The notes: generated by a model not told the origin, from the sequence alone. Counted from the first letter of the stretch, positions 18,931-61,172 are shown. The stretch is DNA of 64,000 nt from a gamma proteobacterium endosymbiont of Lamellibrachia anaximandri (GCA_016756855.1 JAESPD010000002.1:1-64000), one strand, 5' to 3'. Made by a program: numbers and translations.

Positions 18931-19602
18931 TTGTCAGATATTGTATCGAACTTGCAGATAGGAGAGGTATTGCAGCTGCAGTATGCCCCTCCCAGTGAAA
19001 ATCAGGATCGGTATGCGGTCAAATTGATCGGATATCTTCCCAACGAAAGCCTGGTTATCACCACTCCCAGAAAGCAGGGCAAGGCAATCCTGGCGAGAGA
19101 AGGACAAATGTTCACTGTTCGCGTGCTTCAAGGCAGCAATATTTTTGGGTTCGTGGCAAAAGTGTTGCAGACCTCATCAAAACCCTACCCTCATCTGCAC
19201 CTGGCATATCCGGAAGAGGTTGAAAGTGCGGTGGTCAGGAATGCGCCACGGGTACATACCTCACTTCAATCTGTCTGTCGTAACACAAAGAACCCGGATG
19301 ATTCAAAACATGTCAGCCGTGCCAAAGTTATCGACTTGAGCCGGACCGGTGCCCGTCTTTCCGGTGAAATGTCGTTGGGAGAGGTCGGCGAGACGCTGCA
19401 ACTACAGTTAGCGATTAATAGTTGCGATGGTGACGATGTGCTCCAGCTGTTGGGCGTCATACGCAGTGTTCGCGAAGTTGAGACACCTGTAGGTGGGACT
19501 CACTATATCCACGGTCTGGAGTTCAGCGGGCTGAACCGTTTTCAGCAGGTTTTGCTCTGCGCCTTTGTGTTGGGACAGATGGTGCATGAGAATGAGATGT
19601 AG
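18931..19602 (+). CDS. PilZ-domain cyclic-di-GMP receptor, YcgR-like
   Basis: 223-residue cytosolic protein. The N-terminal half resembles the YcgR N domain (IGEVLQLQYAP, then LIGYLPNESLVITTPRKQGK). The C-terminal half is a PilZ domain with an (N/D)xSxxG-type motif (IDLSRTGARL) and upstream arginines (RNAPRVHTSLQSV; VSRAK). The family tunes flagellar or surface behaviour in response to cyclic di-GMP, but no flagellar genes are near, so the target is unknown. The start is taken as TTG at 18931, since no in-frame ATG gives a full N domain. A strong terminator follows. Confidence 0.8.
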   Translation: MSDIVSNLQIGEVLQLQYAPPSENQDRYAVKLIGYLPNESLVITTPRKQGKAILAREGQMFTVRVLQGSNIFGFVAKVLQTSSKPYPHLHLAYPEEVESAVVRNAPRVHTSLQSVCRNTKNPDDSKHVSRAKVIDLSRTGARLSGEMSLGEVGETLQLQLAINSCDGDDVLQLLGVIRSVREVETPVGGTHYIHGLEFSGLNRFQQVLLCAFVLGQMVHENEM

Positions 19603-56190: not shown

Positions 56191-56343
56191 TACGAGGGGC
56201 TGCTAATAAAAGAAGAAAATCACTCTTTATTCTTTCATGGGAAGTAAATGCCTGTAGAGAACAGGGACGTGTACCGAGGTTTCATTACTATGTAATATGC
56301 GGCTGGTTCAACTATCTAATCAGTCGAGAATTGGAAAACTTGT

Positions 56344-57747
56344 ATGCGTAATAAGCTAGCGTACGCCCTCGCTTTAACAGGTGTCTTATCTCCGCTATTG
56401 GCTCAGGCGGGACCACAACAAATGCTGCTGCTTATCGACATGCTCAAGGAAAACGGAACCTTGACAGAGATCCAGCACCAGCAACTCAAGGCGGCCATGA
56501 TGGCTGAAGATCCCACGCCTTCCACGAAACAGCCACCAGCACAACAAACTCTCCCGCTGCCCGCCTCCGAACCAGTGGATGTAATGGTCTCCACCCAGGG
56601 GGGCAGTGTAAAGGCGGAGTCCTACGATGGCAGGTCAAGCTTTGAGTTCACTGCGCAGATAGCGGCAGATGCGGCCTGGTACGACAGTGATATCACAGAT
56701 ATGGGAAACGCCGCAGAGATTCGATATGCCCGCATTGGGGCTGAAGGTACGCTCTTCGGGCCTTGGGAATACGAATTGGAGATAGACTTTGCCGGTGAGG
56801 ATGTCGGTTTGAAAGACGCTTGGCTTGGATATCGAACGCTGGGTGACAGCCGACTTAAGGTTGGCCTGTTCAAAACGCCATTCAGTCTGGAGGAGATGAC
56901 CACTTCTGCCAACCAGACATTCATGGAACGCTCATTGATCAATGCCATGACGCCGGGGCGAAACGTCGGCGTAGGTTTCGAAACCTATGACGGCCAGTGG
57001 AGTCTGGCGGGCAGCATTTTTGGCGAGGGCGCGGATGATGGTGACGATCGGCTCGACGACGAAGGATGGGGCGGCAGTCTGCGCGGCACTTGGGCACCAG
57101 TAGCAACAGACACTAGGGTCTTGCATCTTGGTCTCTCCAGCTCTGCCCGCACCTATGGCGGGGATTCGGATGACGAGGCGGTTTTTCGTATCCGAACTGA
57201 CCCTGAATCTCATTTAGTGGATTCAAATAACTACCTGCTGGATACCAATCAATACGAAACCAAGAAATCGAAATACAAGATCCAGCATATGGAACATACC
57301 ACCAGTATCGGAGTGGAAGCCGCAATGGTGCATGGTCCGGTTTCGTTACAAGGAGAGTTTGTTCGGACCTATGTCAATTCAGAGGACTACATGGAGAGCC
57401 TGAATTTTCATGGTTTCTATGTTGCCGGCAGTTGGTTCCTCACCGGCGAATCGCGAAACTACGATCATACACAGGGGCGTTTCAGTCGCATTTCTCCCTA
57501 TAGCAACTTTGGCTGGGGAGAAGGTACCGGTGCCTGGGAGTTGGCGCTGCGTCACAGTCATCTCGGCCTGGACGATCAGGATATCGAAGGCGGCAGGGAG
57601 TGGAATACCACAGTAGGGATCAACTGGTACGTCAACCCGAATATCCGCTTCATGGCTAACTACATCGTGGTCAATTCCGAGCCTGATGCGGCAGGGGAGG
57701 AGGATGATCCGCGCATCATTCAGGTTCGTGGCCAATATGATTTCTGA
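56344..57747 (+). CDS. OprO/OprP-type outer-membrane porin
   Basis: 467 residues with a signal peptide (MRNKLAYALALTGVLSPLLAQA), a short N-terminal helical segment (about 25-55) that may trimerise, a Pro/Gln linker, then a beta-barrel with alternating aromatic strands and a terminal Phe (IIQVRGQYDF). The barrel resembles phosphate-selective porins (YARIGAEGTLFGPWEYELEIDF; DAWLGYR; VGLFKTPFSLEEMT). Anion specificity is only inferred. Next to a PhnD-like binding protein, 27 bp downstream. Confidence 0.88.
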   Translation: MRNKLAYALALTGVLSPLLAQAGPQQMLLLIDMLKENGTLTEIQHQQLKAAMMAEDPTPSTKQPPAQQTLPLPASEPVDVMVSTQGGSVKAESYDGRSSFEFTAQIAADAAWYDSDITDMGNAAEIRYARIGAEGTLFGPWEYELEIDFAGEDVGLKDAWLGYRTLGDSRLKVGLFKTPFSLEEMTTSANQTFMERSLINAMTPGRNVGVGFETYDGQWSLAGSIFGEGADDGDDRLDDEGWGGSLRGTWAPVATDTRVLHLGLSSSARTYGGDSDDEAVFRIRTDPESHLVDSNNYLLDTNQYETKKSKYKIQHMEHTTSIGVEAAMVHGPVSLQGEFVRTYVNSEDYMESLNFHGFYVAGSWFLTGESRNYDHTQGRFSRISPYSNFGWGEGTGAWELALRHSHLGLDDQDIEGGREWNTTVGINWYVNPNIRFMANYIVVNSEPDAAGEEDDPRIIQVRGQYDF

Positions 57748-57774
57748 TGCGCATATACCGGATCTGAGGTAAAA

Positions 57775-58713
57775 GTGGCATCAATATCGAGACTCATCAG
57801 ATGCATCCTGACAGTGTCGATCCTGCTCTGTCTCTCCGGCCATGCGGTCGCATCAGATTCAGAAGTTCTCCGAGCCCAGACACTGGTGATCGGCAAGGTC
57901 AGCGACAGTCCACGTAAACACTATATCCGCCTCAAGCCGATGGTCGATTATGCGGGAAAAAAGATGAAGGACCTCGGCATTACCCACACCCGGGTTTTAA
58001 TGGCTAGAAATAATGCACAGATGATTCGCTATCTCAGGGAAGGGAGGGTCGACTGGGTAACCGAGACAATTTTTTCATCCCTGGCCTTTCGTGATCAGGC
58101 GGGTGCGGAGATTATTCTGCGGAAGTGGAAAAAAGGGGTGCCCGGCTATCACACGGTTTTTATTACACGGAAAGAGAGTGATATTTACACCTTGAAGGAT
58201 CTTCAGGGAAGACGTATTGCTTTAGAGGACCCAGGTTCGACCACAGCCTTTTTTGTACCTATGACTATTCTTTTCGGGGAGGGGTTGCAACCGGAAAAAC
58301 TCCAAACCATCCGTAGCACACCATCGCCGGATAAGGTGGGTTATGGCTTTGCAGGTGGAGAGATAAACATTGCAACATGGGTCCATCAAGGGTTTGCTGA
58401 TGCCGGTGCATATAACGATCTTGACTGGAACACGCCTGATCATACCCCACCTTCATTCAAAAAAGATCTGCGCATTTTCCATCGGGCTGAAAAAATGCCC
58501 AGAGGATTTGAATTGGTTCGTTCCGGCATGGATCCAACAATCAAGGCACGTCTCAAGAAAATTCTGCTTGAGGCTGATAGTGATCCTGATGCCGGTGATG
58601 TGCTTTTTTCCTATCAGCGTACAGCACAGTTCGATGAGATTGATGACGAAACCAAGGTCGCATTGGAGCTGGTCAGGCAGCAGATGGATAGACTGGCAGG
58701 TAAGCCGCATTGA
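57775..58713 (+). CDS. PhnD-like periplasmic binding protein without transporter
   Basis: 312 residues with a signal peptide ending near AVASD (residues 1-27). The type 2 binding-protein fold of the phosphate/phosphite/phosphonate group is seen from RLKPMVDYAGKKMKDLG, YLREGRVDWVTE and DLQGRRIALEDPGSTTAFFVP. No ABC permease or ATPase lies nearby. Its stop overlaps the ATG of a membrane cyclic-di-GMP protein (TGATG), so it is more likely a sensor subunit than a transporter part. Start GTG at 57775. Ligand unknown. Confidence 0.85.
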   Translation: MASISRLIRCILTVSILLCLSGHAVASDSEVLRAQTLVIGKVSDSPRKHYIRLKPMVDYAGKKMKDLGITHTRVLMARNNAQMIRYLREGRVDWVTETIFSSLAFRDQAGAEIILRKWKKGVPGYHTVFITRKESDIYTLKDLQGRRIALEDPGSTTAFFVPMTILFGEGLQPEKLQTIRSTPSPDKVGYGFAGGEINIATWVHQGFADAGAYNDLDWNTPDHTPPSFKKDLRIFHRAEKMPRGFELVRSGMDPTIKARLKKILLEADSDPDAGDVLFSYQRTAQFDEIDDETKVALELVRQQMDRLAGKPH

Positions 58714-61172
58714 TGGGAACACGCCTTCAGAGCAAATACTCGATGATCATGTTCATACTGATCATAGGGGTTGTTTTGGCTGTATCAACGATACTTTTCC
58801 TGCAGTTCGACGAGGCCTTCGAAGACTATCAGAGCGCAAGCGCATCGGCCTTGAAGGAGGTCCATTTTAAACAGTTGGAACACCAGGGACAGACTCTGGC
58901 AGAGGTCCTTGCACAAAGTCTGGTCAATCCGCTCTATGAACTGGACATGGAAAGTATTAGTACGCTGTTGCGCACCGCAGTCTCTCAGCACGATATTGAC
59001 TATGCCATGGTCTACGATACCCAAGGCAGAATCATCCATGACGGCAAAGAGACAATTCCAGGATTTGGAAAAACAACCGGGCATCAAATCGTCGAAAAGT
59101 CGCTGCAGGAAAAATCGGTAAAGAGCAAGATTGAAGACAATCATCTGGATCTGGCGACACCAATATTCATCGGCGAGGGTGTTGTGCTCGGCGGCATTCT
59201 AATCGGTGTTTCTCTGGAGGATATGCAGAAAACTCTGGCGCAATCAAATAAGAGATTGGAATCGATCAGCAGTCACCATAGTCAACGCAACATCTACGCG
59301 GTCTTGTTATTAGGCATCGCTTTAAGTGGAATAGGTATCCTGGCTGCCACCCTTGTCGCGAACCATCTCACCTCACCTATCGGGAAGCTTGCCAGGCTTG
59401 CTGAACGTATCGGCGCCCATGACTACCGGGCATCGAGTCAGATCGAACGTCCTGATGAAATCGGCGACTTGGCCCATGCATTGGAAAAGATGGGACGGCA
59501 ACTCGAAAAAACAACCATTTCAAAAGAGTATCTGGATGAGATCCTCTTCAGCATGAAGGATGCCCTGTTGGTAACGGATCGGCAGGGAATAATCAAAAGG
59601 GTGAACCGCGCCTTTTCCAATCTGACAGGCTACAACGAAGATGAGTTGCTGGAGAGTCCCCTCAGTTCGGTGCTGCCGCCAAAGTCCGATCGATTGGAGT
59701 GGTATGAACTCATTCTGGAACAGGAGGATGTCAATGCCGAGGATGCAACCTTTATCCGGCGTGACGGCAGTAGTGTTCCAGTGCTTTTGTCCGCTGCCCT
59801 GTTATCCCATTCCCAACACCATCAAGGCATGGTCTTTGTTGCGCAAGATATGACAGAACGTCATGCTGCGGCACAGCAGATTCACAATCTTGCCTATTTC
59901 GACCTGGTTACCGGACTGCCGAACCGGGCGCTTTTTATTGACCGCCTTAATCAGATGTTGCAGCTGGCTGCACGGGAAAAAAGCCGCCTGGCACTGATGT
60001 TTCTTGATCTGGATCGATTCAAAAATATCAATGATACCTTAGGGCATCAGGTGGGAGATCGTCTGCTGAAGGCAGTGGCGGAGCGATTTCAGAATGCCAA
60101 GCGCGCAGCGGATACGGTGGCACGCTTTGGTGGCGATGAGTTCACGTTCGTTATCCCGGATATTCAGAAGGCAGATGACATCATCGCCTTGGCGGAAAAG
60201 ATCCTGGCGCTGTTTCAGCGTCCTTTCCAGATTGATGACTATGAACTCTTTGCCGGTACAAGCATCGGCATTAGCATTTTTCCGGATGATGCGGAGAATG
60301 CCGAATCGCTGATTCGACATGCAGATACAGCCATGTACCGCTCGAAGGAAAAAAAGTCCAATGGGTTTGAATTTTACACTGCGGACATGAATATTCGCGC
60401 CACCGAGTTTCTGCGGCTTGAACACGGTCTGAGACGCGCATTGGATAACGCCGAATTTGAACTTTGCTATCAACCACAGATCAATCTCACAAGCGGGAAG
60501 GTAGAAGCCGTCGAGGCACTGCTGCGCTGGAGACAACTGGATGGGTCGATGCAGTTACCGGACAGCTTCCTTCCTGTTCTGGAAGAGACGGGCCTGGTGG
60601 TTCCCGTCGGTGAGTGGGTACTGAAAGAGGCCTGTCAACAGATGGTCCAGTGGCGCGAGACCGAGCTGGCGCCCGATCATGTTGCCGTCAACCTCTCTGG
60701 CAGACAGCTCTCAACTCCAGGGTTGGTCAGATTGATAGAAGAGACCCTGGAACAGTCGGGGCTCTCTCCCGAATGTCTAATGCTGGAGATCACGGAAAGT
60801 AGTCTCATGCAGGATACTGACCGGGCCGTCGATCAACTGACTCAACTATCGACGATGGGGATAAAACTCGCTATCGATGACTTCGGAACCGGCTATTCAT
60901 CGCTGGAACACCTGCAGCGTTTCCCAATCCATATTTTGAAGATAGACCGCAGCTTCGTGCAGAATATGGAGATCAACAAAGACCGGGCCGCTATCGTCAC
61001 GGCCATCATCAGTCTGGCGAAAATCATGGAGCTGGATGTGGTCGCAGAAGGGGTGGAGACAGAGCATCAGAAAATGCTACTTATCGAGCTTGGCTGTGAT
61101 CTGGTTCAGGGTTTTCTGTTTGGCGATGCTGTAGCCGGGTCAGAGATCAAATTCAGCAATGCCGCATGCTGA
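58713..61172 (+). CDS. membrane sensor with PAS, GGDEF and EAL domains
   Basis: 819 residues. Helix 1 (about 11-31), a periplasmic sensor region (about 35-190), helix 2 (about 197-220), HAMP (about 222-275), PAS (about 278-395), GGDEF (about 400-560, intact active site GGDEF at 473-477) and EAL (about 575-815, EAL at 601-603, with NLSGRQL, DDFGTGYSS and AEGVET). Both catalytic motifs look intact, so it may make and break cyclic di-GMP. ATG at 58713 overlaps the stop of the binding-protein gene. Confidence 0.93.
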   Translation: MGTRLQSKYSMIMFILIIGVVLAVSTILFLQFDEAFEDYQSASASALKEVHFKQLEHQGQTLAEVLAQSLVNPLYELDMESISTLLRTAVSQHDIDYAMVYDTQGRIIHDGKETIPGFGKTTGHQIVEKSLQEKSVKSKIEDNHLDLATPIFIGEGVVLGGILIGVSLEDMQKTLAQSNKRLESISSHHSQRNIYAVLLLGIALSGIGILAATLVANHLTSPIGKLARLAERIGAHDYRASSQIERPDEIGDLAHALEKMGRQLEKTTISKEYLDEILFSMKDALLVTDRQGIIKRVNRAFSNLTGYNEDELLESPLSSVLPPKSDRLEWYELILEQEDVNAEDATFIRRDGSSVPVLLSAALLSHSQHHQGMVFVAQDMTERHAAAQQIHNLAYFDLVTGLPNRALFIDRLNQMLQLAAREKSRLALMFLDLDRFKNINDTLGHQVGDRLLKAVAERFQNAKRAADTVARFGGDEFTFVIPDIQKADDIIALAEKILALFQRPFQIDDYELFAGTSIGISIFPDDAENAESLIRHADTAMYRSKEKKSNGFEFYTADMNIRATEFLRLEHGLRRALDNAEFELCYQPQINLTSGKVEAVEALLRWRQLDGSMQLPDSFLPVLEETGLVVPVGEWVLKEACQQMVQWRETELAPDHVAVNLSGRQLSTPGLVRLIEETLEQSGLSPECLMLEITESSLMQDTDRAVDQLTQLSTMGIKLAIDDFGTGYSSLEHLQRFPIHILKIDRSFVQNMEINKDRAAIVTAIISLAKIMELDVVAEGVETEHQKMLLIELGCDLVQGFLFGDAVAGSEIKFSNAAC

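Follow-up and report, generated by a model that had tools for sequence, protein, structure and literature searches.

A porin-linked variant of a binding protein-cyclic di-GMP receptor pair in a tubeworm endosymbiont

What does a PhnD-like periplasmic binding protein do when its gene lies between those of a porin and a GGDEF-EAL receptor? We addressed this question for three genes in a 64,000-nucleotide stretch of DNA (GCA_016756855.1 JAESPD010000002.1:1-64000; the window) from the gamma proteobacterium endosymbiont of Lamellibrachia anaximandri. A preliminary description of the window had proposed a relay from a periplasmic ligand to cyclic di-GMP (c-di-GMP).

Organization of the three-gene locus

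The three open reading frames were found on the plus strand where the preliminary description had placed them (Table 1). A 27-bp gap separated the porin gene from the binding-protein gene. The overlap between the stop of the latter and the receptor start was also confirmed, and it comprised four bases (TTGA). The receptor starts at the TTG at 58710, which is common to the genus mates; an in-frame ATG at 58713 is not common to them.

Table 1. Positions of the genes and receptor domains in the window
Feature	Position	Strand	Evidence and remarks
Porin_O_P outer-membrane porin gene	56344-57747	+	467 aa; ORF call and Pfam, 249 bits
PhnD-type binding protein gene	57775-58713	+	312 aa; ORF call and Pfam Phosphonate-bd, 134 bits
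TM-sCache-TM-HAMP-PAS-GGDEF-EAL receptor gene	58710-61172	+	820 aa; ORF call and Pfam
Periplasmic sCache domain of receptor	58821-59285	+	about residues 38-192; CitA/DcuS/WalK-like fold
HAMP domain	59352-59507	+	Pfam
PAS domain	59532-59858	+	Pfam
GGDEF domain	59892-60362	+	Pfam, 169 bits; GGDEF motif at residue 474 and RxxD I-site at residue 465, intact
EAL domain	60429-61124	+	Pfam, 251 bits; EALLR, NLSG, EITE, DDFGTGYSS, KIDRSFV and EGVE intact

The three-gene order was kept in five further genomes of the genus, with PhnD identities of 86-92%; among the genus mates, those with names are endosymbionts of the tubeworms Lamellibrachia and Escarpia. The dN/dS values across the porin, binding-protein and receptor genes (0.06-0.27) indicated purifying selection on all three. 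With this selection, and with the order conserved in the genus and in other families, the arrangement is not due to chance.

Several minor features of the locus were recorded. Synonymous divergence between the window species and its genus mates was about 0.35-0.40 for the porin, 0.25 for the binding protein and 0.15 for the receptor. Ahead of the porin, at 56191-56343, a block reading GTGTACCGAGGTTTCAT..CTATGTA.TATG was kept in four genus mates and may be the promoter of the unit or a regulator site. Scans for promoters and terminators gave site numbers below or no higher than those in shuffled sequences. In a 3414-base contig of Candidatus Endoriftia persephone (L065/L047), the binding protein and receptor were split over several frames. 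This contig is an old draft with unknown bases, and the frame breaks represent either sequencing error or real decay.

The binding protein and its paired receptor

Within the Phosphonate-bd (PhnD-like) family, the binding protein falls into the XAC2383 branch; it is soluble and periplasmic, with a signal peptide that, by eye, has no lipobox. Phosphonate-bd was its sole Pfam family match. It scored below the cut-offs of the curated PhnD equivalog (89 bits vs. 261) and of the subfamily model TIGR01098 (99 bits vs. 112). A phmmer search of the PDB gave 5ub3 as the best match (E 2.9e-64, 220 bits) and PtxB as the second (E 2e-8, 37 bits), and a profile search agreed that 5ub3 is the nearest solved relative. 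The entries of this group (5ub3, 5ub4, 5ub6 and 5ub7) carry the deposited molecule name phosphate-binding protein. AlphaFold modelled the binding protein poorly (pLDDT 44), which precluded a fold search; the 5ub3 match gives the fold and made such a search unnecessary.

We next consider whether the protein has transport partners. No ABC gene adjoins it. The preliminary description had regarded the binding protein as lacking ABC partners and had pointed to a phn/ptx-type ABC operon elsewhere as the finding that would speak against this. PhnC and PhnE models run over the whole, 100%-complete genome returned nothing above the curated cut-offs, the nearest PhnE-like match scoring 29.9 bits against 216.7, and the description thus stands on this point. 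The other Phosphonate-bd matches in the genome all lie elsewhere and comprise a histidine-kinase fusion, a lone gene and a short protein with an unrelated ABC set nearby. At G000:C35 (L036:7231-9435), a Phosphonate-bd domain and a PAS histidine kinase form a single protein that resembles TtrS-type sensors.

The neighbourhoods of related genes were then compared. Profile A1, representing the window-type binding protein, was used to search 369 genomes of the class and 398 of the phylum. The subfamily set comprised 38 loci above 150 bits, with the genus counted once, and 36 lower-scoring PhnD homologues served as controls. A receptor gene came next on the same strand in 35 of the 38 loci (the exceptions being L134, L141 and L144), and in most of these loci the receptor start lies only a few bases from the binding-protein stop. 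An ABC gene came next in none of the 38, compared with 18 of the 36 controls. On the binding-protein tree, the sensor branch stood apart from the ABC-linked controls with 100% SH-aLRT support, in a comparison that holds only three such controls and long branches.

The reverse survey used profile A2, which covers the TM-sCache-TM part of the receptor, over the same 369 and 398 genomes. Since A2 was built partly from adjacent pairs, the reverse survey supports the pairing but is not a fully independent test of it. In the class, nine genomes scored above 200 bits, exactly the nine with the binding protein and all with the two genes adjacent; the next match reached only 59 bits. In the phylum, every match above 150 bits adjoined a binding protein, bar an extra copy (G589:C277). 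The co-occurrence of the two genes in other genomes, on which the preliminary description had staked its proposal, was therefore found in both directions.

The outputs attached to the sCache part varied. They were GGDEF-EAL (the window, L045, L046, L121-L123, L126, L128, L130, L133, L138 and L139), kinase, including hybrid kinase (L124, L131, L135-L137, L143 and L145), or SpoIIE phosphatase (L146 and L148). The output type changes at least eight times on the binding-protein tree. The two periplasmic parts thus stay together while the outputs swap, which is the pattern expected of a docking pair.

These results bear on the reading that the binding protein serves ordinary transport through an ABC permease encoded elsewhere, with the neighbouring sensor unrelated to it. 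The family is named for ABC transport, and the genome holds many ABC ATPases. However, neither PhnC nor PhnE was recovered, no subfamily locus had an adjoining ABC gene, the position of the gene is kept throughout the genus and its pairing with the receptor was tight in both surveys. We regard this reading as very improbable, and the absence of PhnC and PhnE above cut-off led us to reject ABC transport as the use of the protein. That a binding protein free of ABC partners is coupled to a GGDEF-EAL receptor, as the preliminary description had it, is borne out by the surveys together with this absence. The idea that a binding protein controls a c-di-GMP enzyme here, with no ABC transporter involved, is well supported.

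TM stretches lie at about residues 6-37 and 193-220 of the receptor. The preliminary description had correctly given it two helices; its periplasmic part was overestimated, being about 155 residues and not the first 190. The sCache_3_2 Pfam match of this part (25.8 bits) lay under the cut-off of 28.4. An AlphaFold model from a thin alignment had a pLDDT of about 80-89 over most of residues 50-170, and the domain model matched the sensor domains of WalK, CitA and DcuS (Z 16-18, rmsd 2.0-2.5, 118-134 residues). Foldseek matched the model to the same sensor domains. Because a sequence profile independently found CitA and DcuS in addition to these model matches, the periplasmic domain is assigned, on model and profile, as an sCache/PDC domain. 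The catalytic motifs of both GGDEF and EAL domains are intact, as predicted for an active bifunctional enzyme.

The sCache domain is presumably the docking site of the binding protein, by homology with the Xanthomonas pair considered below. CitA and DcuS, whose fold it shares, bind small carboxylates directly, and the sCache domain could likewise bind the signal itself, with the binding protein merely buffering or competing for it. The near-obligate pairing of receptor and binding protein argues against this arrangement, and we consider it unlikely.

The closest known system is that of Xanthomonas citri. The 5ub3 structure is XAC2383 (PMC10942540), and XAC2383-XAC2382 is named as a periplasmic receptor and a diguanylate cyclase by Teixeira et al. 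(2018, J Biol Chem 293:10767; cited in PMC10380989). The window binding protein lies on the same branch as XAC2383, with 38% identity over aligned columns, and in the loci of the XAC2383 clade that were inspected, as in the window, an sCache-GGDEF-EAL receptor adjoins the binding protein and ABC genes are missing. The XAC2382 cache domain reportedly binds XAC2383, whose ligand-bound form is said to lower cyclase activity. Phosphate-containing ligands are reportedly present in the XAC2383 structures, and XAC2383 homologues are said to be paired with varied outputs. One profile spanned the cache domains of the window receptor, of L045, L126, L128 and L130 and of others, so that the window receptor is homologous in this domain to receptors of the Xanthomonas-type clade. 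The window receptor has a PAS domain and an intact EAL domain. The window unit differs from the clade loci in the Porin_O_P gene in front, which none of them has. It is a variant, with a linked porin, of a receptor pair already known.

NspS belongs to the PotD-type family. The window protein matches Phosphonate-bd alone and is not of the PotD-type, polyamine-binding kind. NspS-MbaA of Vibrio cholerae had been offered as the precedent; there, and in Sinorhizobium meliloti, the polyamine-sensing NspS controls a GGDEF-EAL receptor (PMC8967002, PMC9993111). The shared principle holds, since in both cases the binding protein would govern a GGDEF-EAL receptor instead of transport. As the nearest precedent NspS-MbaA gives way to XAC2383-XAC2382, which is much closer.

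Ligand pocket and porin

The pocket was aligned with that of E. coli PhnD (L237). Tyr125 (Tyr93 of mature PhnD) and Ser155-Thr156 (Ser127-Thr128) are kept, whereas Glu196 replaces His157 and Asn80 replaces Tyr47; XAC2383 has Lys at position 196. We take these PhnD residues to be ligand-pocket positions and the Ser-Thr pair to be an anion anchor. The window protein is therefore like PhnD of the phnCDE system in its fold, its anchor and this tyrosine, and differs from it in lacking His157 and Tyr47 and in coming from a genome without phnC and phnE. Arg243 occurred in 39 of 40 sensor-type sequences and was not among the common residues of 35 controls at the same column. Glu97 and Asp217 likewise split the core sensor type from the transporters.

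Judging from these residues, the ligand is probably an anion or a zwitterion. The preliminary description had placed the protein in the phosphate/phosphite/phosphonate group. The Phosphonate-bd family membership was upheld; a phosphate or phosphonate ligand exceeds the evidence because the pocket has changed relative to PhnD. The PhnD-like fold, the retained Tyr125 and Ser155-Thr156 anchor, the deposited name of XAC2383 and the phosphate-containing ligands that its structures reportedly favour are consistent with phosphate, phosphite or a phosphonate, but the exchanges at His157 and Tyr47 are not what this predicts, and the sensor-type marks Arg243, Glu97 and Asp217, unusual in transporters, suggest that specificity may differ. 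The same fold family, moreover, includes sensors of arsenic oxyanions (PMC5908839) and sterol-binding proteins (PMC10942540). We give such a ligand slightly less than an even chance.

The arsenic-sensing binding proteins AioX, ArxX and ArrX, which come from another regulatory gene cluster (XSR; PMC5908839), resemble the window protein in that a PhnD-like fold serves signalling and not transport. Because the mature window protein has no Cys, Cys106 of AioX has no counterpart, and we rejected arsenite sensing as in AioX.

The window porin was the sole Porin_O_P member found in the window genome and matched OprP (2o4v) with an E value of 2.8e-29 and 29% identity. Arg59, Lys109, Arg133 and Arg218 of OprP are kept and Lys378 is changed to Arg; Lys13, 15, 25, 30, 74, 121, 313 and 323 and Arg34, 60, 220 and 242 are not kept. 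These positions are, we assume, the phosphate-binding lysine cluster and the arginine ladder of OprP. The porin thus resembles OprP/OprO of Pseudomonas aeruginosa in family and in Arg59 and differs from them in lacking Lys13, 15, 25, 30 and 121, Arg34 and Arg60. With the lysine cluster not kept and the arginine ladder incomplete, the porin is, by its sequence, not clearly phosphate-selective.

A Porin_O_P gene adjoined the pair in 11 of the 38 subfamily loci, compared with 1 of the 36 controls. It immediately preceded the binding-protein gene in the genus and in L046, L121, L122, L123, L124, L131, L133 and L147, and it followed the receptor gene in L137 and L143. The outputs in these units were GGDEF-EAL, kinase or, across a 252-bp gap, MCP neighbours. 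The linkage spans several families and different outputs, and on the tree it takes five changes, with the XAC2383-containing clade free of the porin. In 12 of the 13 porin-linked genomes searched, the linked porin was the only homologue of the window porin. A literature search, with the 2018 Xanthomonas citri paper outside its scope, found no report joining a phosphate-selective porin with such a pair, and the conserved link of a channel to the receptor pair looks new. The earlier claim that an OprP-like porin 27 bp upstream could admit the same anion thus holds for family and linkage; phosphate selectivity does not follow, as the lysine cluster is missing.

Since the remaining 27 of the 38 loci, the Xanthomonas-type clade among them, have no porin, the pair can work without one. 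This pattern and the missing phosphate-binding lysines would suit a general porin that is co-transcribed with a working pair, is of use in the same circumstances and plays no part in bringing in the sensed ligand. Against this, the linkage recurs in several families and survives changes of output, and most of the genomes concerned hold no homologue besides the linked porin. A general porin is possible, and we hold it at clearly less than even probability. We are equally tentative about the channel as a dedicated part of a recurrent porin/binding-protein/exchangeable-receptor cassette, which would admit a signal and not serve nutrition. The exchangeable receptors of such a cassette would perhaps be of GGDEF-EAL, kinase and chemoreceptor types.

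Proposed relay and related gene pairs

We consider it quite probable that the three genes form one sensory unit, in which the porin admits a solute, the binding protein docks on the sCache receptor and c-di-GMP shifts. The porin would pass a small, probably anionic solute through the outer membrane; both this route and the ligand class are inferred. The soluble XAC2383-type protein would capture the solute in the periplasm and would not hand it over to an ABC transporter. The loaded protein may then dock on the sCache domain, as homology with XAC2383-XAC2382 suggests, and the docked state would be relayed via TM2, HAMP and PAS to GGDEF and EAL, shifting the balance between making and breaking c-di-GMP. 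By homology with the same pair, ligand would lower cyclase activity. The relay itself is not new, because XAC2383-XAC2382 has already been described. The preliminary description had further suggested that the c-di-GMP is perhaps read by the PilZ protein at 18.9 kb. The PilZ gene is real (18931-19602); since the genome has 44 GGDEF matches, nothing ties its product to the receptor, and we dropped this suggestion.

Should the cassette prove real, it would point to a c-di-GMP input with a ligand open to direct search, in relatives of tubeworm symbionts, which have to detect the switch between host and sea water. It would also offer a test of a porin as a dedicated receptor part. The marks Glu97, Asp217 and Arg243, with the loss of His157, are usable for re-annotating many genes now called phosphonate transporters.

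Two further gene arrangements were observed. More distant PhnD-like proteins, outside the sensor subfamily, adjoin GGEEF-type cyclases (L052:6633-8809 and L051:6959-9130), and the pairing of such binding proteins with cyclases seems to have arisen more than once. In addition, an NMT1_3-family binding protein lies near a same-strand GGDEF protein with a DGC-coil domain (G000:C184, L039:6718-10341), possibly another binding-protein/cyclase pair in the window genome.
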